A stretch of DNA of 56,759 nucleotides from Bacillota bacterium (lineage in GTDB: Bacteria; Armatimonadota; HRBIN16). Below the pieces are notes generated by a model. The model made no database searches, had not been told where the DNA came from, and saw only the letters and a program-made list of their open reading frames with translations. Within the stretch, counting starts at the first letter, position 1. Every line of letters begins with the position of its first letter. A program made the translations under genes and the position numbers. Positions 8,276-34,100 of the stretch are shown here, in pieces. Location of the stretch: assembly GCA_023511455.1 (NCBI GenBank), contig JAIMBJ010000021.1:1-56759 (forward strand). The letters are read 5' to 3'.

Positions 8276-8296
8276 CACCCGTTTCCGGCACGGGTG
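8276..8296 (+). other. Leader hairpin upstream of pilB
   Basis: CACCCGT-TTCCGGC-ACGGGTG: a perfect 7-base stem in the pilB leader, 33 bases before the start codon. There is no run of T, so it is not a terminator. I do not recognise a riboswitch class. Confidence 0.45.
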
Positions 8297-8329
8297 GGGA
8301 GCCAAACAAGTAAACGGGGTGAGAGAGCA

Positions 8330-13757: not shown

Positions 13758-14333
13758 ATGGCAGTGCAAGCAGTTTCCAAACCCATCACCTACGAGGAAT
13801 GGCTGCGGATGCCGGAGACGAACCAGCGTTATGAGATTGTCGACGGAGTGTTGCAAATGTCACCTGCGCCGAATATGCTACACCAGCTGCTCGTTGGGGA
13901 GCTGTCTGGGATTTTCCGAAAGTTGGTGCCAAAATCAGTAGGATTGGTAGTTACGGCTCCCATTGACGTAACCGTTTCTCGGTCTCCGCTGAAGGTGCGC
14001 CAGCCGGATGTGATGGTGGTATTGTTCCGTGAGGATGGCTGGCGCGATGTGCAGGCGTTGCTGGATGCGCCGCCCGGGGAGGTTATACCAGACCTGGTGG
14101 TGGTAGTGCTGTCTCCCAGTGAAAGTAGGGTAGCCGTTCAGGAGAAGATAGAGGATTACCAGCGCGCTGGCGTTCGGGAGGCGTGGATTGTCAGTCCAGA
14201 GGCGCAGACGGTAGAGGTACTGCGCTTGAGCGCACAGAAAACCGAGCGCATCGGCTTGTACGGGCGGGGAGATACCGTCCGTTCGGAATTATTGCCAGAA
14301 TTGCAAGTAGATACCGACCGCCTCTTCGCGTAG
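13758..14333 (+). CDS. Uma2-family (DUF820) protein, probably catalytically inactive
   Basis: 191 residues with the Uma2 PD-(D/E)xK nuclease-like layout: TYEEWLRMPETNQRYEIVDG, then QPDVMVV (Asp84), DLVVVVLSPS (112-121) and EKIEDYQRAGVREAWIV. The family normally reads DLVVEVLSPS; here the catalytic Glu position is Val116 (codon GTA at 14103-14105, one base from GAA). The second Uma2 gene in this window, at 21795, keeps the Glu. It starts three bases after pilD and may be co-transcribed with it. The biological role of Uma2 proteins is not established; many genomes of this type carry dozens. Confidence 0.85.
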   Translation: MAVQAVSKPITYEEWLRMPETNQRYEIVDGVLQMSPAPNMLHQLLVGELSGIFRKLVPKSVGLVVTAPIDVTVSRSPLKVRQPDVMVVLFREDGWRDVQALLDAPPGEVIPDLVVVVLSPSESRVAVQEKIEDYQRAGVREAWIVSPEAQTVEVLRLSAQKTERIGLYGRGDTVRSELLPELQVDTDRLFA

Positions 14334-14393
14334 GGGAACAATACGCCCGGAGGCGTCGTCAAAACCGACAGGAAAGGAACGAGGTGACCGACT

Positions 14394-15182
14394 ATGCGAG
14401 ACCGGATTTGCACCAGAGCGTTCACGATGGTGGAGATGCTGACGGTGATAGCGATTATCGCCGTGCTCGCCGCCATCATTTTTCCCGTAGCGGCAACGGT
14501 GCGCGAACAGGCACGTCGCACCACCACCATGTCCAACCTGCACCAGATACAGGTTGCGTTAAAGCTGTACAAACAGGACAATCGAGTGTATCCCGAGGTG
14601 CTGTTGGGCTACGTGGAGTTCGACAACAGCAACAACCCCATACCTGCGGACAGAATCCGCGGGGGCTTCCTGTATCAGGCTTACATCCGTGACATCAACA
14701 TCTTCCGCAGCCCGAACAATCCGGTGAACGACAAAGTGAGCTGGCGGGCGGTGGAGGTGATGCTGCCCGACCCGAGCAATCCCAGCGTGCGTACCAACGA
14801 AATTAACGGCGTGCTGGTAACTCGTCCCTTCTACGTCTTTGACAGCATGGACGTGGGGCAGACCTGCCCGGGCAGTGGGGTGTTCGAGCAGCACTACAGC
14901 CTGTATCGCCCTTACATGCCGACAAGCAATACCGCTGGCCCTCTGGATGACATGTGCCAGCTGCAGTACAACCTGCCGCCGGAGAACACTATCGTGACCT
15001 GGGTGTCCGACCATCGTAGTTGCGACAGGACAGGCAGGCCTACTGCCGGCAGCAAAGACATCGTGCTGCTGCTCAGCGGTACGGCGAAACCGGTCGACTC
15101 GCGCATCATTGCCCAGAAGATGACCGGCAACGACCCGAACTTCAGCAATGCAGGGCAGAACAAGTTCTGGTGCCTGGACTGA
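14394..15182 (+). CDS. Type IV pilin / pseudopilin (PulG-like)
   Basis: 262 residues. It has a short basic leader MRDRICTRA, then the prepilin signature FTMVEMLTVIAIIAVLAAII; Glu5 of the mature protein is present. The residue before the cut is Ala, not the usual Gly. The hydrophobic helix is followed by ATVREQARRTTTMSNLHQIQVALKL, typical of PulG-like pseudopilins, then a cysteine-containing globular part (cysteines near residues 155, 184, 205 and 261). It is the first of four pilin-like genes here and may be a major or minor subunit. The ribosome binding site is GAGGTGA. Confidence 0.88.
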   Translation: MRDRICTRAFTMVEMLTVIAIIAVLAAIIFPVAATVREQARRTTTMSNLHQIQVALKLYKQDNRVYPEVLLGYVEFDNSNNPIPADRIRGGFLYQAYIRDINIFRSPNNPVNDKVSWRAVEVMLPDPSNPSVRTNEINGVLVTRPFYVFDSMDVGQTCPGSGVFEQHYSLYRPYMPTSNTAGPLDDMCQLQYNLPPENTIVTWVSDHRSCDRTGRPTAGSKDIVLLLSGTAKPVDSRIIAQKMTGNDPNFSNAGQNKFWCLD

Positions 15183-15229
15183 GGCAGGATTGCCGTGCGC
15201 TCGGTTGAAGTGGACGCAACGTTGTTACC

Positions 15230-15278
15230 GTGCATGACAAGGAGCGGATGAGATATTGCGCTCACGTTGTGCATGACA
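15230..15278 (+). repeat. Pair of 10-base direct repeats before the PilV-like gene
   Basis: GTGCATGACA occurs at 15230-15239 and 15269-15278, each preceded by ACGTTGT-like sequence. It could be a binding site pair or a chance duplication. Confidence 0.35.
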
Positions 15279-15323
15279 GGGGGACGGTCATAACCCACCA
15301 GATGGTAGGCGGTGGAGGCGAAC

Positions 15324-17156
15324 ATGAAAAAGAATTCAAGAGCATACGCCTTTTCGCTGATTGAGGTGCTGGCGGCGATAGCCGTGCTGACCATCGGCAT
15401 ACTGGTCATTCTGAAGCTGTTTCCGGGCGGTTTCTTCGTGACCCGCGCCGCGGAGAACCGCTCGTTTGCCAGCCGACTGGCTCAGCAGGAGATCGAGCGG
15501 TGGAAAAACAGCGCGACCGCGCTGCCTGCGGGTATCCTCGCGCTGGCACCGTACAGCGACGGCAGCGCGACGGGGGAGGCTATCGATGTCGGGGCGCATC
15601 CCGATAACCTCGCACCGCCCTTGTTGCCGACTGGCATCGACCCTTACTACTACTCCGACATCAACCGCTGGCGGCGAGTGGTGGGCGAAAAGGTGCGAAT
15701 CCCCATCCCTGTGCCTACCATGGTCGGACAGGGCTCTGTGTACGTGCTGGCGGCGGGCCCGTTCGTGGACCAGCCGCTATACGACCCGGTCTCGCAGGTG
15801 TGGCGGCTGAGTAACCTGAATGTGTACGGCTCGCCGATGGTGCGCATCTGGTGGCAGGCGCAAGAGGATGCTCCACCGCCGTTGCGTCGTCCGCATCAGT
15901 ACGCCATCGACTACGACGCCAGCGACGATGGCTCGCACGATGATGTGGTCATCTGGTTCTATCCGACGCCGTACCCGCGCGATTTCACCATCTCCTACGA
16001 CTACTATGACGGCAATGACGGCTGGAAACTGAAGTCGGTTTCCAAGACCATTCCCAACGTGGTGAGCCTGACCGGCGAGCCAGTGAAAATTGAACTGCGC
16101 AGTTATGTCGGACCCGATGGCAGGCCGATTCTGGAGTCGGGATGGCGTATGCGCGGGGGCAGTGAGCTGGTCAGCCGCGAGTTCCGGTTGCTTCCGCTGG
16201 CACAGGCGTGGTCCGATGACCCCTACGAGTTCAAGATACTGCACGGCAACATCGGTCCCTATGCCAACGTGGGCGTTCTGCTGTTCAACCCGCGTGGGCG
16301 CGACTACACCGAGCGTACAGCCCGCGGCGTGGTGCCGCTCACCGCGCACATCGATTACACCGTGCTGGACTGGCACATTATCCGCGAGGACCGGCTGGTT
16401 CCCACAGTGCCTGCCGAAATCAGGCTGAACCTGCGCTTCCTGCGCAAACGCGGCGATAAGCTGGATGACCAGACCACTTATGAAGGGCTAATAAGGGGTG
16501 TGAACTGGAACACACTGCCGCCTAATGACCCGTTACGCCAGCAACCGGACTTCGTGGCGGTGGACCTGCAGACGGGGCAGGTCATTGACCCCATCGTCGG
16601 GCAGGGGGATACCGGCTCGTATCAGGTGGATTACCGCAACGGCATCGTGAACGTGGTGGATCCCACTCTGGCGGGACATACCCTGCGTTTCTACTATCAG
16701 GCGGACGGCGACTGGGGCGTTCTGGTTCTCAAGCCGTACGAGTTGTATCGCGAGCGATACGGCAATCTACTCAGCTACCGCGAGTTTTACGTGGGCGGCG
16801 GGCCCGATGGTGGCTCACCCACGCGCATCTACTTCCCCGTGTGCGATGCCGGCAAGCAGGTGATACTTGGGGAAGTGTACTACGTAGATAGCGCACTGGG
16901 CAAAGATGTGATGCGTGGCGTGCTGGCACGCATCAGCAACCGCACCGAAACAGTGGGGGGACGACCCCTGTGTTACATCGATATCCGCGACATCAAATCC
17001 ACCGCGGTGTCGCTGGACCTGGATGCCTACAACACGTACGGATACGTGGTGCGTGGTGTGAAAGGTGCGTCGTTCAAGGCGCGTGTTATCTGGAAGGAGA
17101 ACAACCGCTGGCAGCGCTATGAGGTGGAAACCATCCTCACGCGCGAAATGGAATAA
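15324..17156 (+). CDS. Large PilV-like minor pilin
   Basis: 610 residues. The leader is MKKNSRAYA followed by the prepilin signature FSLIEVLAAIAVLTIGILVI, with Glu5 present and Ala before the cut. The PilV/GspI-type continuation is FFVTRAAENRSFASRLAQQEIERWK. The remaining 550 residues are a large exported region rich in Tyr, Asp and Pro, without a family I recognise; typical PilV proteins are under 200 residues. The ATG at 15324 follows GGTGGAGG by six bases. Its place between PulG-like and PilW-like genes fits a minor pilin that helps prime pilus assembly. Confidence 0.85.
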   Translation: MKKNSRAYAFSLIEVLAAIAVLTIGILVILKLFPGGFFVTRAAENRSFASRLAQQEIERWKNSATALPAGILALAPYSDGSATGEAIDVGAHPDNLAPPLLPTGIDPYYYSDINRWRRVVGEKVRIPIPVPTMVGQGSVYVLAAGPFVDQPLYDPVSQVWRLSNLNVYGSPMVRIWWQAQEDAPPPLRRPHQYAIDYDASDDGSHDDVVIWFYPTPYPRDFTISYDYYDGNDGWKLKSVSKTIPNVVSLTGEPVKIELRSYVGPDGRPILESGWRMRGGSELVSREFRLLPLAQAWSDDPYEFKILHGNIGPYANVGVLLFNPRGRDYTERTARGVVPLTAHIDYTVLDWHIIREDRLVPTVPAEIRLNLRFLRKRGDKLDDQTTYEGLIRGVNWNTLPPNDPLRQQPDFVAVDLQTGQVIDPIVGQGDTGSYQVDYRNGIVNVVDPTLAGHTLRFYYQADGDWGVLVLKPYELYRERYGNLLSYREFYVGGGPDGGSPTRIYFPVCDAGKQVILGEVYYVDSALGKDVMRGVLARISNRTETVGGRPLCYIDIRDIKSTAVSLDLDAYNTYGYVVRGVKGASFKARVIWKENNRWQRYEVETILTREME

Positions 17157-17203
17157 CACTTATAGAACAAAGAAAACGCGAAGGTGAAACAGGAGTGTCA
17201 CCG

Positions 17204-19069
17204 ATGAGAGAGATAGGCAACACGAAGTTCAGGTCAGCTTTCACGCTGGTGGAGCTGCTGGTGGTAATGGCGATTACTGCTGTGATGCTGGGACTGCTGC
17301 TCGGTCCCATGCTGCAAAGCTTCAACTTCACACGACGGGTGCAGCGGGTGGCGCAAGCACAGGATACCGCACGCAACCTGATGGAGACCATCTCTCGGGA
17401 GATTGCCGACGCCGCTTACGTGTTCGACAACTCTCGGGTGCTGAACCCGTTGACCACTAGCAACCCCGTGAACGATGCCACCCTGCAGTTCACTCTGGTG
17501 GACCAGCGAGGTAATGCGGTCACCTTCTATCTGCCATATACCAAGATCGACTTCGTGTTGCCGGAACGTGCAACCGCAAACGGCACTGGCATTATCGACC
17601 CCACGGACGGCAGCGACTATGTCCCGCCGAGTCAGCGGGTCGGCAAGCCACCTTTGGTGCCGGTGCTTGCGGGACGTACCATCGTGCGCTATTTCATCGC
17701 CCGACGTGACCCCAGCCGTCCTTACAGCAACCGCAATGAGCAACTGCTTGCTACGGCGGCGTTAGACAACCCGTACATCTTGTGGCGTGCGCAGTTTGTG
17801 CTGTACGAACGGAATGGCAATGGGCAGTATGTACCGAATACCAAACTGTTCAAGCTCGACGACTACGGACAGCCCATCATCGACGAGCCGTGGTTCTTCT
17901 ATGATACCCGCACGGCGCCGAATGGCAGGTCGTACATGCAGAACTGGCTGGAGGTCAGCCGCCCGGTGACCGAGGTGGAGGATATCGACCTGCTGAACGT
18001 ACGTTACGACCAGCGCACGGGAGAGATTGTGCAGGTGACGCCGTTGATTCAGTTCCTGCCCGGTCTGGTAACGGATGACCCGGCGGTACCCACCAATCTG
18101 GACGACGCCGCCAACGAAGTGCCCAACACAATCCCCACTGCATATACGACCAAGAAGGGCGGCTGGAGCAGCCCGTTTGTGGTCACCGTCTACCGTGACG
18201 GCTTCAGCACCGTGTATACGACCGGGGACGTGAACGGACAGCTGATGGTGGCGCGTGGAGCTTCCGATGCCTTCCGTTTCAATATCACGGCTTACCAGCT
18301 GATGCAGTCGGCTGGCTGTTATGACGAAGGCACCTGGGATGCGGGGGTGTGTTCCAACCTGCCCGACCCCTGGATACAGGGAAGTGGTTCATGGGAGCGT
18401 AACCCCACTTCGCTGGACGCTCCGTATCCCTATTTGCCGTTCGATGTAGACCCGCGCTCAGGCACGGTCAGCTTCGCTATCCCTGCAGTGGCAGTGTTCC
18501 GACCGGGTGAGCGGCCGGTGTTTGAGTATCTTGCCCGCAACACGCGGGTGGATGAGAGCGGACGACGGTACCTGCTGCTCTCGGAGCCGGACATCAACAA
18601 CACCGCATCCAACAACCGGCAGAGTCCGCTGAGGCTGCTGCAGACCGTGTCCATTGTGCCCGGCTCGGAACGGATTTGGGGACCAGACCAGACGACCCCA
18701 CCCGGCGTGGAGCCGCGTCTGGTACCTTACACCCGCGTGCCCTGGAACGTAACGCCCGGTCCGAACCAGTATCGCATCAACTATCAGGGAACGCGCGACG
18801 GTCATCCCACGCTGCAAACCGGTTATGTGGAGTTCTGGTCGCTGTGGCAGGTGCCATCGGGCACACGGGCAGACGGCACGCCTTACGACCTGCTGCGCGT
18901 GACCTACGCGATACAGTCGAACACCAGAAATGATGTGGTGAAAGTGGATTACATGACGCGCTCGCAATACACGCTGGCAATCAGCATCAAACTGTATGAC
19001 CCGACAACGGGTGACCCACTGTTGATGTCCCTGACCACGCAGGTGCGGGTGCGCAACCTGTTACGATGA
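17204..19069 (+). CDS. Large PilW-like minor pilin
   Basis: 621 residues. The leader is MREIGNTKFRSA, then FTLVELLVVMAITAVMLGLL, with Glu5 present and Ala before the cut. The continuation MLQSFNFTRRVQRVAQAQDT and ETISREIADA is typical of PilW/GspJ proteins. The exported part of over 550 residues is far longer than in known PilW proteins and carries no domain I recognise. The ATG at 17204 has AGGAG eight bases ahead and is preferred over a GTG at 17195. The gene follows the PilV-like gene by 47 bases and precedes the PilX-like gene. Confidence 0.85.
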   Translation: MREIGNTKFRSAFTLVELLVVMAITAVMLGLLLGPMLQSFNFTRRVQRVAQAQDTARNLMETISREIADAAYVFDNSRVLNPLTTSNPVNDATLQFTLVDQRGNAVTFYLPYTKIDFVLPERATANGTGIIDPTDGSDYVPPSQRVGKPPLVPVLAGRTIVRYFIARRDPSRPYSNRNEQLLATAALDNPYILWRAQFVLYERNGNGQYVPNTKLFKLDDYGQPIIDEPWFFYDTRTAPNGRSYMQNWLEVSRPVTEVEDIDLLNVRYDQRTGEIVQVTPLIQFLPGLVTDDPAVPTNLDDAANEVPNTIPTAYTTKKGGWSSPFVVTVYRDGFSTVYTTGDVNGQLMVARGASDAFRFNITAYQLMQSAGCYDEGTWDAGVCSNLPDPWIQGSGSWERNPTSLDAPYPYLPFDVDPRSGTVSFAIPAVAVFRPGERPVFEYLARNTRVDESGRRYLLLSEPDINNTASNNRQSPLRLLQTVSIVPGSERIWGPDQTTPPGVEPRLVPYTRVPWNVTPGPNQYRINYQGTRDGHPTLQTGYVEFWSLWQVPSGTRADGTPYDLLRVTYAIQSNTRNDVVKVDYMTRSQYTLAISIKLYDPTTGDPLLMSLTTQVRVRNLLR

Positions 19070-19093
19070 GAGCGGGAGGGGGAAGTGCGAAAA

Positions 19094-21793
19094 ATGAGTA
19101 AACCAGTGTGGACGAAGGCGATGTGTCCTGCACACGCGCAGCGTGGACAAACGCTGGTCGTGGCGGTAGTGGTCATGTTCGTCATGATGTTTATGGGCGC
19201 GCTGTTCGTGGCGATTATCGGGCGAAACCTCGAGAACGCGGCACGCAGTGGCAGAGTAACCGATGCCCAGTACTTTGCGGAGGCGGGCATCCAGTACGCC
19301 GACCAGCAGCTGACCTTCAGCGAAGAAGGTGCCGACTGGCGTCCCGTGCCGGCGAACCTGCCTCCGGACCAGTGCCGCGACCCGGACTATCAGTGGCTGC
19401 GTCCATACGCCCCCACCGAATCCACCACGTTGAACCCGTGTGGCACGCCGGCGGCTGGTCCCAGCGGCGGCTACAGTCGCGTGTTGTTCGAAAACGGACG
19501 CGCGCTGATACGGGTAAGCTATAATCCTCGTCCGTACGACCCGAACGACCCCGAGTCGGGACCGCTCTCCCGCTTCATCAAGATAGAATCTGTTGGACGG
19601 GTGGGGCGCATCGACCCGAATGACCCGACCATGCTGACCGCGGCGGCGACCGGTTTGCGGCGGGAAATGGTGGCTTACAAGGCTATCGGTATCACCGACT
19701 ACCTGCGCTTCATCACCAACCGCGATAACCGCGCCAACGTGGTGGTGGAGCTGGGTGTGCCGGAAGGCATCGTGGGACACGATGCGAACGGAAACCCGAT
19801 ACCGGTGCGACTCATCTGGGGTAGTAACACCAGTGGTGCGCCTATCCGCGTCAACGGGAACCTCAAATGGCACGGCGAGGTGGAACTGACCCTCAATCCC
19901 CAGGCTGGAGACCGGGTGGAGGTAGCAGGAGACATCCTTCTGGCACCTCGCGCGCAGGTGACGGTGAATAACAATGCCCTGCTTCCCAGCAACAGCCCCA
20001 CATTCAATACCTATGGCGGTGTGGTGCGCGACGGACGCGCCGGCGTGGGCGTGGATGGGGGAGCCCGCTTGGCAACGCGACTGGAACCACCCCTTATCGA
20101 CCTGACAGACCCGGCCACCAACGTGAACCGCTACTGGAGTATGACGCGCAACTCGGGCGCGCTGGTCGGCGGGCGCAATAGCGGCTTGTTCGGCTTCGGC
20201 AGGGGTATTTACATCAATAACCGTGCCGATGTACTGCGCGAGCCGGGCTTGTTTGGCGGTCCCACCGTGCGCAGTGAGTTCCTGCGGTTGATAGACTCGC
20301 GCAACTGGCAGGGACCCTACTATGTGCCGCCGGGCGCTATCATCCGACTGAACCCCTTTGGCTTTACCATCCAGCTCACACGCGGGCGATGGCGCGCTCC
20401 GAATGGGGCAAACACCAACGCGGTGACCATGGTGTGTACATACCTGCCCGACGGACGGCTATCGCAAGACCTGCTGGACCCCTCCCTGAACAAGGCGGCG
20501 GTCGGACTGCCGTTCGTCACTCAGTTCAGCGGTGTCATCTATGCCGAAGGGAATATCCGCATTCGCGGCATCATCCCGCAGGGCAAGCAGCTCACTGTGG
20601 TGTCGGGTGGCAATATCTTCATCGAGGGCAACCTGATGAAACCGCGCCTGCCGAACGGTCTGCCCGACAACACCAGCGCCATCGCCCTGCTGGCGAAAGA
20701 GAACATTGTGGTCAATACCACGCTTTTCATCGACCCCGAACTGGGTACTGAAGCGGGCGGCTGGAACGAGCAGGACGCGCCGCTGAACTTCCCTTCGTGG
20801 CACAGGGCGATGTTGCCTACCCAGAGGCAATCCTTTGTGTTCTCATCAGCGGTTTCATTGAACACCTATTTCAGCAATACATGGCCTCATGGTCTGAAAC
20901 TTCTGGTGCGCCATGCTGCCATCGAGAACGAGCAGACCAGCATCTTCCTGCACGTGAACTATCCGGTGAACGATACCAACGGCAACGGTGTTCTGGACGA
21001 AGACCTGTATCGCTTCCCGGGAGGCGTTCTGGACGCGCTGGGCTTGCCGACCATCTATGTGGTGAACGCCTCAGGGGTAAACTACGAGCATCTGGGGCTG
21101 GAACTGCTGCGCAATCTGTCGCCGTTCAACACCAATCCGCCGAACCATCCCACCAACCCGCGTAGCGACTACGTGTTGAATACCGCACCCGGCGCGGAGA
21201 ACCGCCTGACCTTTGAGGTCAACAGCGGTTGGGGCAATGTGCCCGCCAACGAGTACCATCTGAGCCGGGTGGCGGTGGTACCCATGGACATTGAGATTGC
21301 TGCGCTGATGTACGCGCAGGAGGGGTCGTTTGTGGTGTTGCCGGGCGAGTGGTTCAACACCGACCCGCGCGATACCTTCCCCATCGGCTCCAGCCCGTCG
21401 TCGGTAGACCAGAACCTGCGCAGGCAGCTGTATGGGGTGCTTTCGCCGGTGTACCCGTTCTACGCTCAACCGCTGGATATTCGCATCGTGATACGGGGAG
21501 CGATTGCAGAGAACCTGCCGTGGGCGATACAGGACCAGGGCGAGTGGCTGAAGAAGTGGGGCTGGATACCGCCACAGTACGGCAATTCGGGTATCCCGAT
21601 ACCGCCATCGCACCTGCGCGACCCGCGTAACCCCGCGCGCGACCTGCCGATGGGCTACAATCTTATCATGGAGTACGACCCGGTGTTCACCAGCGCGGGC
21701 GTGGTGCGCGTCGATCAGTATGGACGCCGGTTGCCACCGATGCCGCGCCTGCCGGTGTGCCCAGGACTACTCTATGTCGGGGAGATGAGGTGA
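19094..21793 (+). CDS. Very large PilX/GspK-like minor pilin
   Basis: About 899 residues. The leader ends in AQRG, followed by QTLVVAVVVMFVMMFMGALF, then NLENAARSGRVTDAQYFAEAGIQYA. This is the PilX/GspK pattern: Gly before the cut, no Glu5, and an AEAGIxYA helix. The middle (about residues 250-550) has alternating short beta-like repeats (VNGNLKWHGEVELTL, AEGNIRIRGIIPQGK, GGNIFIEGNL) that suggest a parallel beta solenoid. Normal PilX and GspK proteins are 150-350 residues. The start at 19094 is chosen for spacing from GGAGGGGGA; a GTG at 19085 is possible. It overlaps nothing but sits two bases from the next gene. Confidence 0.8.
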   Translation: MSKPVWTKAMCPAHAQRGQTLVVAVVVMFVMMFMGALFVAIIGRNLENAARSGRVTDAQYFAEAGIQYADQQLTFSEEGADWRPVPANLPPDQCRDPDYQWLRPYAPTESTTLNPCGTPAAGPSGGYSRVLFENGRALIRVSYNPRPYDPNDPESGPLSRFIKIESVGRVGRIDPNDPTMLTAAATGLRREMVAYKAIGITDYLRFITNRDNRANVVVELGVPEGIVGHDANGNPIPVRLIWGSNTSGAPIRVNGNLKWHGEVELTLNPQAGDRVEVAGDILLAPRAQVTVNNNALLPSNSPTFNTYGGVVRDGRAGVGVDGGARLATRLEPPLIDLTDPATNVNRYWSMTRNSGALVGGRNSGLFGFGRGIYINNRADVLREPGLFGGPTVRSEFLRLIDSRNWQGPYYVPPGAIIRLNPFGFTIQLTRGRWRAPNGANTNAVTMVCTYLPDGRLSQDLLDPSLNKAAVGLPFVTQFSGVIYAEGNIRIRGIIPQGKQLTVVSGGNIFIEGNLMKPRLPNGLPDNTSAIALLAKENIVVNTTLFIDPELGTEAGGWNEQDAPLNFPSWHRAMLPTQRQSFVFSSAVSLNTYFSNTWPHGLKLLVRHAAIENEQTSIFLHVNYPVNDTNGNGVLDEDLYRFPGGVLDALGLPTIYVVNASGVNYEHLGLELLRNLSPFNTNPPNHPTNPRSDYVLNTAPGAENRLTFEVNSGWGNVPANEYHLSRVAVVPMDIEIAALMYAQEGSFVVLPGEWFNTDPRDTFPIGSSPSSVDQNLRRQLYGVLSPVYPFYAQPLDIRIVIRGAIAENLPWAIQDQGEWLKKWGWIPPQYGNSGIPIPPSHLRDPRNPARDLPMGYNLIMEYDPVFTSAGVVRVDQYGRRLPPMPRLPVCPGLLYVGEMR

Positions 21794-21794
21794 A

Positions 21795-22445
21795 ATGGCG
21801 ATTGCGGCATCGCGCAAGGAGCAAATGGTCTACCCTGAATCCGACGGGAAGCCGATGGCAGATAACACGAAGCAGTTTCGCTGGATAGTAACCCTCGAGG
21901 GTGGCTTCGAGGCGCTGTTCCGCGACAGGGAGGACGTGTTTGTGGCGGGTGACCTGTTCTGGTACCCCGTCGAAGGGCACCCCGATATCCGCATGGCACC
22001 TGATGTGATGATTGTCTTCGGACGCCCGAAGGGTGACAGACCCTCTTACAAACAGTGGGAAGAGGAGAACATCGCGCCGCACGTGGTCTTCGAAGTGCTG
22101 TCACCCAGCAACTCGCTGCTGGAGATGGCGAAGAAGCTAGAGTTTTACGACCGCTATGGTGTGGAGGAGTACTACCTGTATGACCCGGAAACCGGCGACT
22201 TTACCGGCTGGATTCGTGGCGAGGACGGTCGGCTGCGGGTGATAGACGAGATTCAGGGCTGGGTGAGCCCGAGGTTAGGAGTGCGCTTTGAGACCGAGAA
22301 CGGCGAGCTGCGCGTCATCCGTCCCGACGGGCAGCGGTTTATGACCTATCTGGAGTTACAACAGCAAGCGGAGCAAGAGCGTCAACGCGCTGCTAAGCTG
22401 GCGCAACGCTTGCGGGAACTGGGCATCGATCCCGAGCAGATTTGA
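21795..22445 (+). CDS. Uma2-family (DUF820) protein
   Basis: 216 residues. The Uma2 nuclease-like core is intact: APDVMIVF (Asp), HVVFEVLSPS (Glu) and KKLEFYDRYGVEEYYLYDPE (Lys). A C-terminal coiled-coil tail of about 35 residues (ELQQQAEQERQRAAKLAQRL) follows, a frequent variant of the family. It begins one base after the stop of the PilX-like gene, so it is part of the same transcript. Why such a gene sits inside a pilin operon is unclear. Function unknown; a DNA-cleaving role is only suggested by the fold. Confidence 0.87.
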   Translation: MAIAASRKEQMVYPESDGKPMADNTKQFRWIVTLEGGFEALFRDREDVFVAGDLFWYPVEGHPDIRMAPDVMIVFGRPKGDRPSYKQWEEENIAPHVVFEVLSPSNSLLEMAKKLEFYDRYGVEEYYLYDPETGDFTGWIRGEDGRLRVIDEIQGWVSPRLGVRFETENGELRVIRPDGQRFMTYLELQQQAEQERQRAAKLAQRLRELGIDPEQI

Positions 22446-22460
22446 GCCGAGAGAAGGGTG

Positions 22461-25400
22461 ATGACAATGCGAAACCGACTGGTTTTCCTGATATTTCTGG
22501 GCGTTGTGGCAGGTTGGCTGGGTATGGTGCGCACGGCACAGGGCGACGCCTATACCTATACCACCGTGCGCAAGCAGATTCGCGTCGGTGTGTTGCAAAT
22601 CGGCAGTAATCCGGTACTGACGCCCTTCGTGTGGCACGTGCTGGACCGGCGCACCGACTACAAACCCGCCGGGTGGGATTTCGTCAATCCGCTGGCGGCT
22701 CCCGGCAGCCGGAAGAACATGGCGACCTACTGGGTGGTCAACCTCGACCAGATATCGATGGAAGACCTTGCCAGATATGACGCGCTGGTGGTCGCCACGC
22801 AGGGCAGTAACATCGGCTTCACCCCCGAACAGCGCGAGAAACTGCGCAAATTCGTCGACGCGGGGGGTCTGCTCTGGATAGATAACCAGACCGCGTATAC
22901 CATCGATACGCGCGCTCCGCTCTTTCTGGACCTGCAGTTCAATAACGAGGGCTCAACCGGCGGATTGCTGGCATATCCGACCCATCCTCTGGTGAACGCG
23001 CCCTATCCAATAAGTGCAGGCGAGGTCAATCAGATGGGAGCCGGCATTCGCGGCTCGTTGAGCGCGGTCGGCGCGGATTTGAATGCGCCCCCTGCACCCG
23101 GTGTGCTGGCTCCGATTGTGGTGCGTCAGGACAATCGCCGTCCGGTTCTGGCGGCTGGTCAGTATGGCAGTGGAGCAGTGGTGGTCTCTTCGATAGGAAT
23201 CGCTTATGCCCTCAGTCAGGCGGTTGCGCCGCCGGGAGGACCCGTAGCAAACGAGAACTTCTTTGCAGCCGCGCCACAGAACCTGAAGTTCGGCTACAAC
23301 ATGATACAGTGGGCGTCGGCGTTTACCGCTCAGCGCAAGAACGCCCGACGCACCGCCGGTAGTTTCGAAAGCATCGGTGCGCCGCTGGTGGAGAAGTGGG
23401 GCTTGACCGGACTGCAGGCAGTGGGCACCTTCGCCTCCGCTCCGGTATTCTACAATGGCGCGCTGTTTGTGGTGGGGGCGTCGCCGTTCGGCGACCTGCG
23501 CCTGTACTGCTTCGACGCGAACCCGCGCCGCGACATCGACGGCGACGGCAACGAGGACGACGGTCTGCCCGACCTGTGGCAGCGCGGCACGCCATACGAC
23601 GAAATCTGGGAGGCTCCGCTGGGAAGCGAACCCGCCTCGACACCGCAGATTGTGGAGATTGCACCCAGCAGTAATGACCCCCTGCAACGTGCGCTGGTGG
23701 TTGTTGCGCTGAAGAACGGAACCGTGCAGGCGTACCGCGCGTTCCCTCGCACTGGAGGTATCAACACCCCGATTGCGGGGCTATCGGACGGCTCGAATCT
23801 GGTCTGGGAACGCACATTGCCTAACGCCGTGCCGTTCGACGATGAGAACGTGCCTGCTCCAGCCTTTGCGGAAGGGTTAATCGTGGTTCCCGCTGCTCAA
23901 TCGGGCACCGGCGGTAACAATGGGCGGCTCTACGTACTGTGGGCAGCCACCGGCGACATCATCAACTCAGGCAGTGCAGGGCAGGACTGGATACAGCCGC
24001 GTACCAATCTGCCCCTCATCCGCGGCGGCGTGACGCTTGGCTATGTGCAGGACAGAGGACAAACAGGCGAAGGCTCTATCGCCAACGACCTGATGGCTTA
24101 CGTTTCCACTGCGCCCAGCTCCACGACCGGCACGCTGACCAGTTCGGTATACGCCTTCTGGTTGGGTACCAGGGGCGAGGTGCTGAGCAATCCCAATAAC
24201 GACAAGCGCACCTTCGTGACGCGCGCACAGGGACGGCAGCTGCATATCTTCCTGGCGGATACCAGCGTTCCCTACGCTTCCCTGAACCCGGTGGTGTGGG
24301 TGTACAATCGCGAATCGACCGGCGCGCTGACGCTCGTAGACCGCTATGACCTGCCCGACTCGCGCATTACCGTGAACGCGGGCACCATCGTGTTTGCCAG
24401 CCAACCCGCGGCGAACCCCGTGGTGGTGATGAACTACTTCATCGACTGGGGTAAATCACCCGGCACGCCCATCCGCAGCACGGTGGGCATCGCGGATGTT
24501 GTTCCCAACCCCAGTAAGACCATCATGGACCAGCCTGCACTGGATGCCAGTGATAACGTGATTTACACCACCGACAACGGTAGCATCTACGGCTTACTGG
24601 AACAGCCCGGCAACCGTACGGTCATGCGCTGGCGGTGGCAGCTGCATGGCGGCTACACCGACCAGATTACACCGCAGCAGTCGGTGAATGTGCCGCCGTC
24701 GCTGGTGCTGAAGCACACGCTGTTTGGTACCAGAGTGCCGCCGGGGGCTGAGGTAGGGCTGACGCCGGGTGGCTTCACCGCGCCGCCCGCCGTCTTCGGC
24801 GACACCACCTACGCGGTAGCGGAAGCACGGGGCACCTTCCCGGGTATTCCGTTCCCCATTTCGGGTACCGTGCTGATGGCGTTCCAGAACAACCCGAAAG
24901 TGGAGCTGCGCCTGCGCGATGAGAACGGCAACCCGGCGTCCATTCCTGCCAACGCCACCCTGCAGATTCGGCAGGTGGATGTGATACGCAGCACCAGCGG
25001 TACCACGCAGTACACCTACGTGCAACCGGCGCAGTATTCGGTGAACCGTGCGGCGGGCGTGATAACCATCAACAACATGATGCCAGGCGCAGGCGGGGGA
25101 GGTGCCGTCTTCGCTTTCAGCCTGTCGCAGCCCACCCTGGTGGTGGTGACCGCGGGCAGCGAACCTCCGCGCCAGTATTACATCCAGCCCGCCACATACA
25201 GCAACCTGAAATGGTTCATGTTCATTCCCTCGGTTCGGGTAAAAGCCTCACCGGTGGTGGCGGGCGATGTGGTCTACCTGTCGGCGCAGGTGGACGCGCC
25301 GGGCGTGCAGGTATCCACTGTCATCGCGGTCTCTGCAGACCCCACTGCTACCGACCCCAGCATCCAGCAGGGTGACGACGTACCCCTGCTCACGCAAGAG

Positions 25401-27011: not shown

Positions 27012-27150
27012 GGCTGATCCTGACCGGGCAATCCTGTGGACGGCGAGGCACGCGCCATGCCGTTGCCGAACGAACGGGCATCTCCGGTCGTCAAATAGCA
27101 TTGACAGAATCAAGCAGACCACTGCCGAGTGAAGCGAGGTTGGGATAAAC

Positions 27151-30100
27151 ATGGCAACAGCGAGAGGATGGTTACTGGCTTGTGTCATCGGAAGCGTACT
27201 GCTCATACAGTATGCGGCTCGGGCGGACGACTTTCCGATGTTCCGCCGTGACTCCCAGCGTACGGGGGCGACGAACCTGACTACAGAAGCGGGTCCGGGC
27301 AGAGCATTCCTGCGCTGGTGGTGGCCCGCACAGCAGGACAGGGGCATCCCCCTGGAGATCGACCGCGACGGGGTCAATCGTGCGGGCGACTACGCGGTGA
27401 TACAGGGCTCGGTGACCACCATCAACATTACCGATGCCAATGCGGTCACCGATTGCTTCCGCGACTCTTACGACTATGCCAGCGCGGTCAATCCGAGCAA
27501 CGCCGATGACCCCACCAGCGGCGCGACGGTGGTTGTCCGCTGGCGCAACGCCACTCCCGCCGAACTCGACCCGGATAACTCCGCCTATAACCCGCTTGTT
27601 GCCAGACCGACTCGCTATCAGATTGCGTTGTGGTTCCCCTCCAGCGGCACGGCAAACGGACGGAACGTCCGCGAGGCGGTGGTCAAAGTCCGCTATCCCG
27701 TAGGAGCCAACGATTACAAAGAGATTATCCTGATAGTGAACCAGACAGCCGGTGGACGATGGGTGCGATTGGGAACAGCAGGTAGCACCGCGTATATTTA
27801 CAATTCCGGCACCGGGAAATGGGAGCGCACCCTGCTTCGCGGCGACCTGTTGTTCCCCTTTGATGGTCGTCGCCCCGTGGAGGTCTATGCCTACAATACC
27901 TCCACCCACACCGACGAGGACGGCAACTTTGATGACGCTGGTCGGCTGGTGGTGTTTGACGGCGTACGCTTCATGCCCGACATGGGGGCGTTTTATTCCT
28001 CACCGGTTGCCGCGACCATCCGGGTAGCGCCCGGGCGCTCCGAGCAGCTGGTGTACATCGGGCGCATCGAGCGGGTTCCTTCTGACGATGACCCCACCGC
28101 CAGCGTGGAAATCGGCGTGCTGTACTGCTTTGACAACGTGGGGCGGGTGGTCTGGCGGTATCCGTTAAACGTCAGCGGTCAACGTGCGGTCACCGTGGAT
28201 GACGCCGATGGCGCACCTGCGTTCCAGGCGGATGTAGGGTGGGTTACTCCCCCCGTGTTACAGCCTGAGCCGTATGGAACCAGCTACGTGCAAGCACCCG
28301 TCGTCCCGACTTCCGACCCCGACACCTGGTTGCGCGTGCGGTGGCAGCCCGACCTGCAGCCCTCCAGCGGTAGCACGACAGCCCGATACACCGTTTACGT
28401 CTGGTTACCGCAGGACGATGGCACTGTTGCCAGAAGCACGGTCGCACGCTACATCGTCCACCACGAGGAGGGCACAACCGTCGTGGAGGTAGACCAGACA
28501 CAGAACACTGCCGGAGGGCAGTGGTTCAGTTTGGGAACCTACCTGATGCGACAGGGCACAACGAACTATGTGGAGCTGGTCAACTATACGCGCCTTGCTT
28601 CAGAAGTTGGGCGCGTGGTGATTGCCGACGCCGCCCGGTTCGTGGAGCAGGGCACTGGCGCGAGCGGCGTCTTCTCCACGCCTGTGGTGCAAACGGTGCC
28701 GATGCGTGTATCGGGAGGCACTGTCGTCGACCGGCAGGTGGTCTTCTTCTCCGCGAACAACGGGAAGGTGTATGCGCTGGACGCCGTTGGCAACGGCGAC
28801 GGGACCACCTTCTCATACTGGATATGGCCGCAGGAACCTCTGAACGAACGTCCGGTCGTCGGTTCGTTCGGTTACTCTTCGCCGCTAGTGGTCAACATCG
28901 GCACGAGCGGTAGCCCCGATTGGCGGGTGTATGTGGCAAACTCGAACGGGCGAGTGTACTGTCTGGACGCCAGCGGCAACGGCGACTTCAGCACGAGCAA
29001 CCCCGGCACCACCGACCGCATCTGGGTGTATCCCGCAGCGGACAAGGCGGCGGTGGTGGATGGGTTCGTGTCGTCTCCTGCCTATAACCGCACGCAGGGT
29101 GAAGGCCCCACCGTTTTCGTCGGTGGTCTGGATGGACGTTTGTACGCTCTGGATGCCGAAGGGGACAATGGCACTACCACCGAGCGATGGATTTACCCCG
29201 GCAAATATGAACCTGCGTCCGGGGACGACCCTTCTTTACCCGAAGAACTGCCACTGGACCCCATCTCCACCACTCCTGCCGTGTTCGACGGCAAGGTGTA
29301 CTTCGCCGCCGCCGACGGGCGCGTGTACTGCGTGAAGGAGAAGGGCACCGGACGCCGGCGCACCGAGCGCGTGTGGGTGTGGCCCTACGCACAGCGACCA
29401 CCGATAAGCACCGCTGGCGACGAGGAGCCGGTGGAGCCGTTTGTCTACTCCTCGCCGACAGTGGCGGCGCAGGTGAACACCATCACCGGCGTGCGCGATG
29501 TGGTGTTCATCGGCGACCGGGGCGGCACGGTCTATGCTCTGGACGCACAGGGCATCGGCAACGGCAGAACGGAGCTGGTATGGCAGGACGTGACCAACCC
29601 CGCGAGCCCCGTTGCTTCTGCCAGTGGCTCGTTGGGAGCAGCAATCTATTCGTCGATGACGTTTACTCAGATTATCCCGAGCCGTTCGGCAACCGGGGCG
29701 ACGCCGTTGCCTGCGGTGGTGTTCGGCTTGATGGACGGCAAGGTGCTGGCGTTGAACGCCTTTAACGGTGGGCCGGGCTCCTTCCGGCAGGTGCTGGACA
29801 ACAATAACAACGTCATCAACGTGCGCGGGGATGTGCTGTGGGGCTGGCAGACGCTGGGTGAGCAGGTGTTTGCCTCGCCCGCGGTGGCGAACAACTGGAT
29901 GTACATTGCTGGCGATGACGGCATCATCTATGCGTTCTCGCCCACAGGGGGCTATCTGACGCCGGGCGAGCCTCCGGGGGCGGAGCTGGTGGATGCTTTA
30001 CTCAGCCCGAACCTGGCGAATCTGCAGGTGGAGGTCTTTACTGCGCAGGAGTACGCCGATATCGTGCAACGGCGCACCCGCACCCCGGAGGAAGTGGTCG

Positions 30101-33100
30101 CAGGTGGGCACACGCGCAAAGTGGGCTACGAATGGGGCGACACGGTGTACGTGATTGCCTACGGCATGCAGGGATTGGTGCCGCCTGCGCGTTCGGTCAC
30201 GCTTACTCTGCGAAGCCGCGCCGCAACGGTGAACCGCACCGTAGGGGTTGTTCCTTATGGCAGTGATACCGGCCCGGCGCAGAAGTGGATGGCGTATCAT
30301 GCCTTCCGTATCACCCCCACCCAGGACGGCGATGCGTGGACGCCTGGCGCACGTTATGCCGCGGCGGTGCGGGTAACCTCCACCACCACATCCGGCGGCG
30401 GGCAACAGACCGCAACCATGACGCTGGAGCGCACACCGGAGCCGTATTTCGAGTTCACCATCGCCCATCCGCTGGCTCTGCGTATACTGAACCCGGATGG
30501 CACGGTCAATCCGAACCTGGAAGTGGGCTGGATTGGGCAGACGGTGGTAGGTACCTCCGTGCCTCAAGAGCTGAGCATGAACGGCAATGCAGGCAAGTTC
30601 CTGCAGCTGGAAATCGGTCTGGTGCCACATGGCGCCAGTAGTGCGCGCCTGATACAAATTGCCGACCGCTCTAAGGTAGCCTTGCGCGGCGGTGACCCGC
30701 TACGCGTGAAGGTGCAGCGGGCGAACGTTGCCTGGCATAACAACGACGACGGCTCTCTCGCGGTGATTAACCCGCTGCCCTGGGACGAATTGCCCGTGAA
30801 TATCCCGAACACCAGCGTGGACTACCCCGATATCCCTGAGCGGGCGGTGAAGGTGGCAGCTGGTGGTGCAGACCTGTTTGCCGCATCGCGCGGCGGCGCT
30901 CTGGCAGCCCCCACCGACCCGGTCGGCGTAGAGCCGGAGTGGACCAGCTGGACGCTGATTCCGACCGTGGGCGAGGTGAGTGTGCAGGTACCGCGCTTCC
31001 AGCCGGCGAACCTGGTGGGCTTCGACGGAGAGAATCCGTACACGGCGCGCGGTTACGCTACCCGTATCCGCCGTCCCATCCGCATCTACGTGGATGTGAA
31101 CAACAACGGTCAGCTGGACCTGCCGGGCGGAGCGGCACTGAGGCAAACGCCTCCGGCTACCCGCGAGGAGCCGTACCGCGAGTTCCGGATCACGCTGGGC
31201 GTGCCGCCCGATATGCGCCTGCGCGTGGAGGAGGAGACCGTCGATATCGGTGCGGTACCGCACGGTTTCGGTGTGCACCCCGACCCGGCGAACTTCGCCT
31301 TCCGCCCGCCTATCTCCGATGCGGACCCGGTGTATAACACCAACCCGTGGTACCGGGCGATAAAACCTGCGTGGAAACCCTTCACGGTGCGCAGTCTGAG
31401 TAACGTGAACCTGCTGAACGTGCGCGCTGTGGGGTCGGTGGACTACCTGGATGCCAGCGGCAACCCGGTGTTCCAGAACCCACTGCCAATCACGCTGGTC
31501 AGCGACCAGGTAAGCCCGTTCTACTGGGAGGTTAGCCCGCTGGGCGACCCAACCTTTACCTTCCACAAACCGGCGCTGACGGCGGGTTGGGTGCGTCGCC
31601 CGGATGGCAGCGTGGTACAGCAGAACGTGTTTACCTCGCTGGACTTGATTTACGACCCGATGTGGTTAACGTTCCGCCCGCCGCAGTACCAGGGCTTCCC
31701 GGGGATGCATACGCTGCACAAGCCACGCCCGGACAGTAGTCCAACGGTGCTGTCTATTCCCGACAAACCTTACCCGGGCGCAGCGGGTGGTGCATTCGAC
31801 AATGTGCCCACGACCAAACCTCTGGTCAGTGTGCAGGTTCCGCTGGGCACGCCGGCGGGAACCTACAGCAACTACATCCGCATCTTCGAGGCGGCGTCGT
31901 GGAACCCGTATGTGCTGGGTATCCAGGCCAACAATCAGCCCGCGCAGCCCGTCAGCGAACCCACCATGCGCGTGAAGGTGACTGTCACCGAATCGCGCTT
32001 GACCAACAGCTGGACGAGCGGTTCTCTGCCTCAGCTGGACACGGTGTGGCAGGGTATCCCGCCGCAACCCGGACAGCCGGGCTACCTGGCGGCGAACGTA
32101 CAACCCGCCGCGCTGATGTTGCCGGAGGGAATGTTGCTGGCATGGAGCAGCAACTGGAGCCGCAACCGCGTCACCGAAGACGGCAGCGACAGCTACCGCG
32201 AGACGCAACCCTCAGGTAGCAACGCCTGGTTCCTGCATCTCGCGGTGCTGCCGCGCGATGCACAGCGCGGGGTGTGGACAGCCGCCTCACCGAATCAATG
32301 GTGGAGCGGACGCGGTGTGGAATACCCGCGTGACCCCACGAACAGCTCCGTGCGCGACAAGTACGGCAGACTGTTCACTACCCAGCCCGGTACGGTGATA
32401 CCGTCCTCCATCAAACACTACTCGCCCACGTTCTTCATTGTGGGTGGACAACCCTATCTGCTGTGGCAGGGGCAGGCAGCGAAGAGGCAGGACACCGGCG
32501 TGGTGCTCACCGAAAACGTGACCTTCGTCGCGCCGATAGTGAACGGTGTGCCGGGTACCCCTGTTGCGCTGGGCAACGATGTCTGGCTGCCGCGCTTCCA
32601 GCCTCGCGTGGTTGTGGTGGGCGGTGTACCGGTGATGTTCTGGTATAGCGGCGCCAGCGGACGTTACACCATCTACTATAACGCCTGCCTGGGCAATCCG
32701 TTGAACCCCAGCGCGTGGACGCGCGACCAGCAACTGCCGGTGCCCGCGGTGGTGACCAACGCCTTTGAACCGCTGGCTATCCCGCGCCTTGGCGCGCTGG
32801 ATGTCATCTACACGGCTTCCACCAAGACGAGACAAACCAATGAGCTGATACTCACCCGCTTCACGCTGGGTGGCGGTGGCAGACTGGTTCCGGTGGACCT
32901 GCCGCCCGTGCGCGGGGAGGTGCTACAGCGCATCGGTACCACCAACGTGTGGATGTCGCGCGACCTGTCATGGAACCGCAACCAGCGCATCCGCATCTGG
33001 CGCGTGGGCGACCCGCACCCGCTGGCAGCCAGCGACATCCAGCAATCGGGTGACTACTATTACGACCGGCGCTATGACTCGAACACGGGTATCCTGTACC

Positions 33101-33960
33101 TGACCCGCTACACCGACAGCGCACGCACGCAAATCGACTGGCAGGCGGTGATCGACCTGTCGGCGGGCACAGTGACCTTCCCCTATCGTGCGCCATCGCG
33201 CACCGATGTGGTGTTTGCGGATTACACGCCGCGCGCCATGCGCCTGACTGCCAATCACGGCTGGAACTCGCTGGTACCGAACGATGGCGTGCCCGTGCCG
33301 CAACCCGTCGCCTTCTACGCGGGGGCGAACAGCGCGCCCACCGGTGGGCTGGAGAAGTCGCTGAACCCGCGCTGGAAGTACATCCTGCCCGCGCTCAACA
33401 ACCCCACGCAGTCGCCACCGGTGGACAGGCTGTGGTTGTTCTACCGCAAGTCTACTGGCTCCACGCCGGCGGAAGTGTTCGTGGTGAAGACCATGCGCCT
33501 GGGAGTGCAACTGCCCACACCGGTGTTCACACCCATCATTACCGACGGTCAGGGCGAGCGACGTCCCGATGTGTCGGGGGTGTCGGTCACGGGCATCAGC
33601 GCGCCTGTTGGCCCGGTGGAGGTGGACTTCGCGCGAGGGCGCATCTACTTCACCGAGGCGGACGAGGGCAAACTGGTCAGCATCACCTACATTGGTCTGG
33701 ACGCGCAGGGCAATCCGGAATCTTCGCCGCGCACAGTGGCAGGCGTGGTGCGCTGGATCGACGAGACCTCCGAAGCCACCGAAGGTTCGCAGGCGCTGGT
33801 GCCGCTGGTGGGCGCAACCAGCGAAAGCAACCTGTTTGCCCTCAAGGACGAGTTCGAGCCGAAGGTGTGGCTGTTCTGGAACAGCACGCGCACCGGCACC
33901 AGTGACCTGTTCTTCCAGACCTTCAGCCCGCGACTGTATCCGGACGTCATCGTGCCGTAA
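27151..33960 (+). CDS. Giant exported protein with PQQ-type beta-propeller repeats
   Basis: 2269 residues, the largest gene here. The signal peptide is GWLLACVIGSVLLIQYAARA, followed by DDFPMFRRDSQRTGAT, a typical start of PQQ-like repeat proteins (W/FPMFRxD). Residues about 535-930 hold at least seven blades (GKVYALDAVGNGDG, GRVYCLDASGNGDF, GRLYALDAEGDN, GTVYALDAQG, GKVLALNAF, GIIYAFSPTGG). The C-terminal half is beta-rich and unassigned. A strong terminator follows 6 bases after the stop. It may be the outermost pilus-associated adhesin or a co-transcribed surface protein. No calcium-binding or integrin-type motif was confirmed by eye. Confidence 0.75.
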   Translation: MATARGWLLACVIGSVLLIQYAARADDFPMFRRDSQRTGATNLTTEAGPGRAFLRWWWPAQQDRGIPLEIDRDGVNRAGDYAVIQGSVTTINITDANAVTDCFRDSYDYASAVNPSNADDPTSGATVVVRWRNATPAELDPDNSAYNPLVARPTRYQIALWFPSSGTANGRNVREAVVKVRYPVGANDYKEIILIVNQTAGGRWVRLGTAGSTAYIYNSGTGKWERTLLRGDLLFPFDGRRPVEVYAYNTSTHTDEDGNFDDAGRLVVFDGVRFMPDMGAFYSSPVAATIRVAPGRSEQLVYIGRIERVPSDDDPTASVEIGVLYCFDNVGRVVWRYPLNVSGQRAVTVDDADGAPAFQADVGWVTPPVLQPEPYGTSYVQAPVVPTSDPDTWLRVRWQPDLQPSSGSTTARYTVYVWLPQDDGTVARSTVARYIVHHEEGTTVVEVDQTQNTAGGQWFSLGTYLMRQGTTNYVELVNYTRLASEVGRVVIADAARFVEQGTGASGVFSTPVVQTVPMRVSGGTVVDRQVVFFSANNGKVYALDAVGNGDGTTFSYWIWPQEPLNERPVVGSFGYSSPLVVNIGTSGSPDWRVYVANSNGRVYCLDASGNGDFSTSNPGTTDRIWVYPAADKAAVVDGFVSSPAYNRTQGEGPTVFVGGLDGRLYALDAEGDNGTTTERWIYPGKYEPASGDDPSLPEELPLDPISTTPAVFDGKVYFAAADGRVYCVKEKGTGRRRTERVWVWPYAQRPPISTAGDEEPVEPFVYSSPTVAAQVNTITGVRDVVFIGDRGGTVYALDAQGIGNGRTELVWQDVTNPASPVASASGSLGAAIYSSMTFTQIIPSRSATGATPLPAVVFGLMDGKVLALNAFNGGPGSFRQVLDNNNNVINVRGDVLWGWQTLGEQVFASPAVANNWMYIAGDDGIIYAFSPTGGYLTPGEPPGAELVDALLSPNLANLQVEVFTAQEYADIVQRRTRTPEEVVAGGHTRKVGYEWGDTVYVIAYGMQGLVPPARSVTLTLRSRAATVNRTVGVVPYGSDTGPAQKWMAYHAFRITPTQDGDAWTPGARYAAAVRVTSTTTSGGGQQTATMTLERTPEPYFEFTIAHPLALRILNPDGTVNPNLEVGWIGQTVVGTSVPQELSMNGNAGKFLQLEIGLVPHGASSARLIQIADRSKVALRGGDPLRVKVQRANVAWHNNDDGSLAVINPLPWDELPVNIPNTSVDYPDIPERAVKVAAGGADLFAASRGGALAAPTDPVGVEPEWTSWTLIPTVGEVSVQVPRFQPANLVGFDGENPYTARGYATRIRRPIRIYVDVNNNGQLDLPGGAALRQTPPATREEPYREFRITLGVPPDMRLRVEEETVDIGAVPHGFGVHPDPANFAFRPPISDADPVYNTNPWYRAIKPAWKPFTVRSLSNVNLLNVRAVGSVDYLDASGNPVFQNPLPITLVSDQVSPFYWEVSPLGDPTFTFHKPALTAGWVRRPDGSVVQQNVFTSLDLIYDPMWLTFRPPQYQGFPGMHTLHKPRPDSSPTVLSIPDKPYPGAAGGAFDNVPTTKPLVSVQVPLGTPAGTYSNYIRIFEAASWNPYVLGIQANNQPAQPVSEPTMRVKVTVTESRLTNSWTSGSLPQLDTVWQGIPPQPGQPGYLAANVQPAALMLPEGMLLAWSSNWSRNRVTEDGSDSYRETQPSGSNAWFLHLAVLPRDAQRGVWTAASPNQWWSGRGVEYPRDPTNSSVRDKYGRLFTTQPGTVIPSSIKHYSPTFFIVGGQPYLLWQGQAAKRQDTGVVLTENVTFVAPIVNGVPGTPVALGNDVWLPRFQPRVVVVGGVPVMFWYSGASGRYTIYYNACLGNPLNPSAWTRDQQLPVPAVVTNAFEPLAIPRLGALDVIYTASTKTRQTNELILTRFTLGGGGRLVPVDLPPVRGEVLQRIGTTNVWMSRDLSWNRNQRIRIWRVGDPHPLAASDIQQSGDYYYDRRYDSNTGILYLTRYTDSARTQIDWQAVIDLSAGTVTFPYRAPSRTDVVFADYTPRAMRLTANHGWNSLVPNDGVPVPQPVAFYAGANSAPTGGLEKSLNPRWKYILPALNNPTQSPPVDRLWLFYRKSTGSTPAEVFVVKTMRLGVQLPTPVFTPIITDGQGERRPDVSGVSVTGISAPVGPVEVDFARGRIYFTEADEGKLVSITYIGLDAQGNPESSPRTVAGVVRWIDETSEATEGSQALVPLVGATSESNLFALKDEFEPKVWLFWNSTRTGTSDLFFQTFSPRLYPDVIVP

Positions 33961-33966
33961 CTATGT

Positions 33967-33996
33967 GGGGGCAGACGCAGGGCGTCTGCCCCCTTT
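33967..33996 (+). terminator. Strong rho-independent terminator after the pilin operon
   Basis: GGGGGCAGACGC, loop AGG, GCGTCTGCCCCC, then TTTCTC: a perfect 12-base stem. It ends the long plus-strand unit that runs from pilB or the pilin genes. Confidence 0.9.
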
Positions 33997-34052
33997 CTCA
34001 TCGATCCCCCGCTCCACCCGTCCTTCATCCAGTCGTTCCGCCACAACGGTCT

Positions 34053-34080
34053 TTGCGCCAGATGTCGGATATGCTATATT
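34053..34080 (+). promoter_or_regulatory. Promoter of the restriction-modification operon
   Basis: TTGCGC (34053-34058), 16 bases, TATATT (34075-34080). The start codon follows about 20 bases later. Confidence 0.5.
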
Positions 34081-34100
34081 ATAGTCTCGGAGCAATGAGG

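Follow-up and report, generated by a model that had tools for sequence, protein, structure and literature searches.

PilY1 is treated as the standard tip adhesin and sensor of type IVa pili (T4aP). Outside Proteobacteria, the PilA1-PilA2-PilA3-ComZ genes of Thermus thermophilus form a pilin cluster with a large outermost pilin, and we know of no giant propeller proteins in that cluster. PilY1 is defined by its C-terminal PF05567 propeller, the only domains reported from its N terminus are vWFA and DUF4114, and the identity among PilY1 proteins is generally <40% (PMC13190605). The calcium motif of PilY1 matters for pilus function (PMC13190605, PMC8833165), and PilY1.1 of M. xanthus carries the variant DxDxDNxxD (PMC8833165). 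In the model proposed for M. xanthus, a PilX pilin without Glu5 is the tip pilin that holds PilY1, and the outermost pilins, PilX and GspK, characteristically lack this residue (PMC7541494).

This study analyzed a minor-pilin locus of Armatimonadota in a stretch of 56,759 nucleotides (hereafter, the window), which is contig C21 of a parent genome (G000) of 3.85 Mb that is 99% complete. The six genes named in the initial annotation, namely those of four minor pilins and two giant proteins, were present at their original coordinates, and all six lie on the plus strand (Table 1). Their extent was revised: the start had been placed at 14394, whereas the real start lies upstream and includes pilB, pilT, pilC, and pilD. 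The presence of these four genes upstream indicates that the six genes make up the distal half of a locus for a type IVa pilus.

Table 1. Features of the pilus locus, with positions numbered from the first letter of the window
Feature	Coordinates	Strand	Evidence
pilB, extension ATPase (MshEN + T2SSE)	8294..10102	+	TIGR02538 648.5 bits, cut-off 675.65
pilT, retraction ATPase	10130..11323	+	TIGR01420 513 bits, cut-off 319
pilC, platform protein (T2SSF)	11431..12663	+	PF00482 above cut-off; T4P PilC models under cut-off
pilD, prepilin peptidase	12729..13754	+	PF06750 and PF01478 above cut-off
Uma2-family gene, between pilD and first pilin	13758..14333	+	PF05685 E=2e-29
Minor pilin, GspG/FimU position, 262 aa	14394..15182	+	TIGR01710 43 bits (under cut-off); N_methyl above cut-off
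PilV-like minor pilin, 614 aa	15312..17156	+	TIGR02523 E=4e-7, under cut-off
PilW-like minor pilin, 624 aa	17195..19069	+	N_methyl above cut-off; HpsC, Verru_Chthon C under cut-off
PilX/GspK-like tip-type pilin, 902 aa	19085..21793	+	No family match; prepilin segment without Glu5
Uma2-family gene, between PilX-like and giant 1	21795..22445	+	PF05685 E=7e-16
Giant 1, 1517 aa	22458..27011	+	DUF4159-like domain, PQQ-like repeats, NHL-like repeats
Calcium-type loop DIDGDGNED, giant 1 residues 359-367	23532..23558	+	Exact PilY1 motif 1
Giant 2, 2269 aa	27151..33960	+	PQQ/BamB-type propeller, two Golvesin_C stretches, long C-terminal region
Intrinsic-terminator-like hairpin	33967..33993	+	12 pairs, 10 G-C, then TTTCTC

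PilB, PilT, PilC, and PilD together with class III pilins, the combination that marks a type IVa pilus, were all found. The PilB protein scored slightly under the cut-off of TIGR02538 but higher with this model than with that of GspE, and the combination typical of a type II secretion system (T2SS), GspE without a retraction ATPase, was not found, with PilT encoded in the locus itself. Because PilT adjoins the other genes and scores well above its cut-off, and because pilB, pilT, pilC, and pilD lie directly upstream, the locus is assigned to a retractile T4aP rather than to a T2SS. PF11104 (PilM) and PF00263 (secretin) were matched above their cut-offs elsewhere in the genome, and one of each lies close together on contig C5.

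The best model for the first pilin was that of GspG, that for the second was PilV, and those for the third were HpsC and Verru_Chthon C. The matches were mostly confined to the N-terminal segment, and the equivalog models all scored under their curated cut-offs; the pilin names used here are therefore approximate. A Verru_Chthon cassette was considered and set aside, because its models match the pilins in the N-terminal segment only and do not match the PilX-like protein, for which the HMM scan returned no family at all. The prepilin segment of the PilX-like protein (RG/QTLVVAVVVMF, with the slash marking the cleavage site) lacks Glu5 and carries Gly immediately ahead of the cleavage site, a pattern shared by nearly all of the PilX-like relatives compared. 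In the other three pilins (RAFTMVEM, YAFSLIEV, and SAFTLVEL; 14394-19069), the residue before the cleavage site is Ala, whereas Gly is usual and occurs in many relatives. The pilins of the window are several times the usual size, three of them comprising 600-900 aa.

The row of pilins followed by giants was confirmed, with the correction that a Uma2-family gene separates the PilX-like gene from giant 1. Uma2 is a putative nuclease family, and this copy aligns only to positions 47-146 of the 172 positions of the profile. The gap between the PilX-like gene and giant 1 measured 646 bases in a congener of the window and at most 331 bases elsewhere, and outside the window's own family (f1) no such gap was big enough for a Uma2 gene. 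The insertion at this site thus appears to be confined to that family. Both Uma2 genes of the locus probably stand outside the pilus system.

At the other end, the terminator-like hairpin begins six bases past the giant 2 stop codon and closes the unit; it was the strongest of 21 terminator candidates in 14300-34200. A promoter scan of the locus yielded fewer sites than did shuffled sequences, and no promoter evidence was drawn from it. Giant 2 is directly followed by a DNA methyltransferase gene (N6_N4_Mtase, E=1e-14), the first possible ATG of which is overlapped by the hairpin, so that the gene probably starts further downstream. A 298-aa open reading frame downstream of the methyltransferase had no NCBIfam match, and the two (33963-36304) are possibly a restriction-modification pair.

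Giant 1 has a signal-peptide-like N terminus as judged by eye, as do many of its homologues. The initial annotation had labelled both giants as propeller proteins; for giant 1 the label suits the PQQ-like and NHL-like repeats but not residues about 40-290, which form a DUF4159/DUF4350-like domain. Among 27 giant-1 homologues, 19 matched DUF4159 (E<=0.1). PQQ-like repeats, which follow this domain, were matched in 14 of the 27 homologues and NHL-like repeats (at about 1040-1260 in the protein of the window) in 7/27; giant 1 itself matches both repeat types weakly. The N terminus is the best-conserved part of giant 1, which is the opposite of PilY1. The motif Dx(D/N)xDGxxD, the calcium motif 1 of PilY1, was found in exact form in 22/27 homologues (shuffle mean 0.1), falling at one aligned site. 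Among the five homologues without the exact motif, L059 departs from it by one letter and L058 by two, and it is lost in L077, L079, and L083. Loops of the DxDxDGxxD type are common in secreted proteins generally, and the motif in giant 1 is thus a parallel to PilY1 and not proof.

The N terminus of giant 2 is also signal-peptide-like as judged by eye. A PQQ/BamB-type propeller was located at about 515-935, within which residues 519-799 match PQQ_2 above its cut-off, and the protein also contains two Golvesin_C stretches. Its C-terminal region is long. Giant-2 homologues carry lineage-specific additions, including DUF11 and NPCBM-associated domains (the latter in one homologue). Their N-terminal identity is mostly 10-25%, and the last 49 residues, with 37% identity, are the best-conserved stretch. 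The calcium motif is rare in these proteins (2/20). A search of genome contigs with giant 2 returned close relatives only, including Armatimonadetes and Chthonomonadia MAGs. AlphaFold2 models of giant 1 residues 293-1490 (mean pLDDT 30) and giant 2 residues 1070-2269 (mean pLDDT 27) were unusable; the underlying alignments, consisting of close relatives only, were not diverse, which accounts for the low confidence of both.

The earlier statement that the N termini of the giants do not resemble that of PilY1 is correct. Because the defining part of PilY1 is the C-terminal propeller, this dissimilarity has no diagnostic value. The C-terminal profile was likewise unmatched: at E<=0.1, PF05567 was found in 0/27 giant-1 and 0/20 giant-2 proteins. 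A six-frame search with the same profile gave no match in 61 genomes, a result to be read with the fact that the control genomes also gave none. When compared with PDB entries, giant-1 profiles matched designed propellers, NHL proteins, and BamB, and the PilY1 entry 3HX6 was not among the matches listed; the C-terminal profile of giant 2 had no meaningful PDB match. Matches of the giant-1 profile to TAL effectors were set aside as artefacts, being mostly single-position or very short stretches.

These searches bear on the ancestry of the giants. They may be true but highly diverged relatives of PilY1, with the giant-1 propeller descended from that of PilY1 and invisible to profiles. The same place in the operon, the large size, the signal peptide seen by eye, and the exact calcium motif beside propeller-like repeats in giant 1 are consistent with such descent, as is the generally low identity (<40%) among accepted PilY1 proteins (PMC13190605). 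However, the failure of PF05567 to match any of 47 proteins at E values up to 0.1, and the fact that the best families in the PDB comparison were BamB/PQQ and NHL without 3HX6, make common descent unlikely in our assessment. This explanation concerns ancestry and is compatible with a function on the pilus tip.

The distribution of the genes was analyzed in 61 genomes representing 27 families of Armatimonadota. Single-sequence searches identified the PilX-like protein in 60 genomes, giant 1 in 45, and giant 2 in 32, and profiles built from conserved parts identified each giant in 44. The profile scoring left out weak short giant-1 matches and one weak giant-2 match, and one genome (G013) was scored positive for giant 2 from the single-sequence search. 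Both giants were present in 41 genomes and neither in 14, with each occurring alone in 3 (Fisher p = 1.7e-8); by family, 19 had both, 6 had neither, and 2 had giant 1 only (p = 9e-5). Genomes with a single giant were mostly those with the locus at a contig end or with an incomplete assembly. The pairwise distance matrices of PilX, giant 1, and giant 2 correlated with r = 0.84-0.87, as expected for vertical co-inheritance; these correlations and the co-occurrence partly reflect shared ancestry.

The open reading frame maps of 40 neighbourhoods revealed pilins, PilX, giant 1, and giant 2 on one strand and in this order in most cases. Conservation of the order within the phylum, which had been put forward as a check, was borne out: the PilX-like gene lies next upstream of giant 1 in 27/27 aligned loci (in the window's own family, with the Uma2 gene between them). 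The contrary case, in which the giants would be conserved away from pilin genes, was checked and does not describe these loci, since the PilX-like gene precedes giant 1 in every one of them. The second giant lies next downstream of giant 1 in 24/27 loci, in several of which it is truncated where the contig or stretch ends, and giant 2 was found away from pilins in three loci only (G027 and G040 of family f17, and G044 of f25). Overlaps of 4 bases, seen in several families, join PilX to giant 1 (L078 and L084) and giant 1 to giant 2 (L058, L062, and L080). Conservation of this order over some 20 families excludes a chance arrangement. The pilVWX-type operon ending in two giants of secreted type is therefore real, as first noted, and occurs in 21 of the 27 sampled families.

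In the remaining six families (f4, f10, f19, f21, f23, and f27), the pilins are kept and both giants are absent, indicating that the giants are not required for every such pilus. The PilX-like protein is longer in families without giants (e.g., L065 and L067-L070), with a median of about 1250 vs 1010 aa (p = 0.002). In one of these families (f21), a gene for a PD40 (WD40-like) propeller protein lies directly 3' of the PilX-like gene (L067:9105-10787 and L069:9166-10659).

The main functional rival to a place on the pilus is that the giants are cargo: large proteins of the cell surface or of biofilms that a pilus- or T2SS-like machinery helps to secrete and that are then released or stay on the surface, without becoming part of the pilus tip. 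In the T2SS, the tip pilin that contacts substrates is GspK, which likewise lacks Glu5, and PilY1 has been described as analogous to T2SS substrates (PMC7541494); moreover, Denise et al. assigned T2SSs to Armatimonadetes (PMC6668835). The three genomes with giant 2 away from pilins agree with this explanation, and the Golvesin_C, PQQ, and NPCBM-associated domains (the last in one homologue) would suit a carbohydrate-associated secreted protein. By contrast, the locus encodes PilT, the tie between giant 1 and PilX in every aligned locus goes beyond what is usual for cargo, and the giants are gained and lost together, and we therefore regard export as cargo as quite unlikely. It is very improbable that the giants are periplasmic or outer-membrane scaffolds (e.g., for PilQ or for the assembly of large pilins) that merely share the transcription unit and stay off the pilus, since giant 2, with its great length and the variable domains at its N terminus, resembles a surface-exposed ligand module and not a conserved chaperone, even though the BamB-type propeller matches, the very large pilins (600-900 aa), and the retention of pilins in giant-less families would fit such a role.

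The position of the giants, their co-inheritance, their secretion-type architecture, and the calcium motif together favour the view that two proteins here take the functional place of PilY1. We consider it reasonably likely that the two giants serve in this capacity on the tip of a retractile type IVa pilus, and they probably accomplish the task of PilY1 by other means. The proposal that they are tip adhesins or sensors, made in the initial annotation, would follow from gene position and from the parallels with described systems. The locus may encode the tip-initiation complex of a T4aP in a phylum in which PilY1 was not detected. The FimU/GspG-, PilV-, PilW-, and PilX-like pilins would assemble in the inner membrane into a priming complex whose outermost subunit is the PilX-like pilin without Glu5; both giants would enter the periplasm via Sec, dock on that pilin, and be carried outward on the pilus end. 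There they may act together as an adhesin and probably also as a calcium-dependent tip module, which is the part played by PilY1 elsewhere. Of the two, giant 2 is the better candidate for contact with surfaces, given that its N terminus is variable and rich in domains and its C terminus conserved; giant 1, which adjoins PilX in every locus aligned and bears the calcium-type loop, would more likely serve as the bridge. We propose more tentatively, and with somewhat less than even confidence, that this is a phylum-wide, PilY1-independent two-giant tip module that converged on the position and calcium motif of PilY1, and hence that unrelated proteins can fill the PilY1 slot.

A minor-pilin operon that is kept while PilY1 is undetected and two large proteins stand instead would be a natural test of the requirements of tip complexes. 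The giants also offer specific candidates for roles in attachment and motility in a phylum that has been little studied, and the six giant-less families provide built-in controls. A limited search of open-access literature found no published description of a two-giant operon, and the passages of the Fimbriimonas genome paper in which pilus genes are counted contain no such operon. Because the search was limited to open-access papers, the description of the system as undescribed is provisional.

Compared with BamB/PQQ and NHL propeller proteins, the giants match in their repeats but scored 29 bits against a BamB equivalog cut-off of 423; they are also much larger, and their gene context is different. 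The likeness to the T2SS pseudopilins GspG-K lies in the first pilin, which scores best against GspG, and in the absence of Glu5 from both the PilX-like protein and GspK. In contrast to a T2SS, PilT is present here, the PilB model outscores GspE, and the giants have no T2SS counterpart.

The closest resemblance is to the pilVWX-pilY1 operons of M. xanthus (clusters 1-3) and P. aeruginosa, in which FimU/GspG-, PilV-, PilW-, and PilX-like genes occur in the same order and are followed by that of a large secreted propeller protein; a PilX without Glu5 is common to both. Two giants without PF05567 stand here in place of one PilY1, and giant 1 bears a DUF4159-like N-terminal domain, whereas vWFA or DUF4114 has been reported in PilY1 (PMC13190605). 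Each giant shares a different trait with PilY1: Dx(D/N)xDGxxD, which is common but not universal in PilY1, is typical of giant 1 and not of giant 2 and is a likeness of motif only, whereas a variable N terminus with a conserved C terminus is shared by giant 2 and not by giant 1. The position directly after the minor pilins, which is usual but not universal for PilY1, is matched by the giants.
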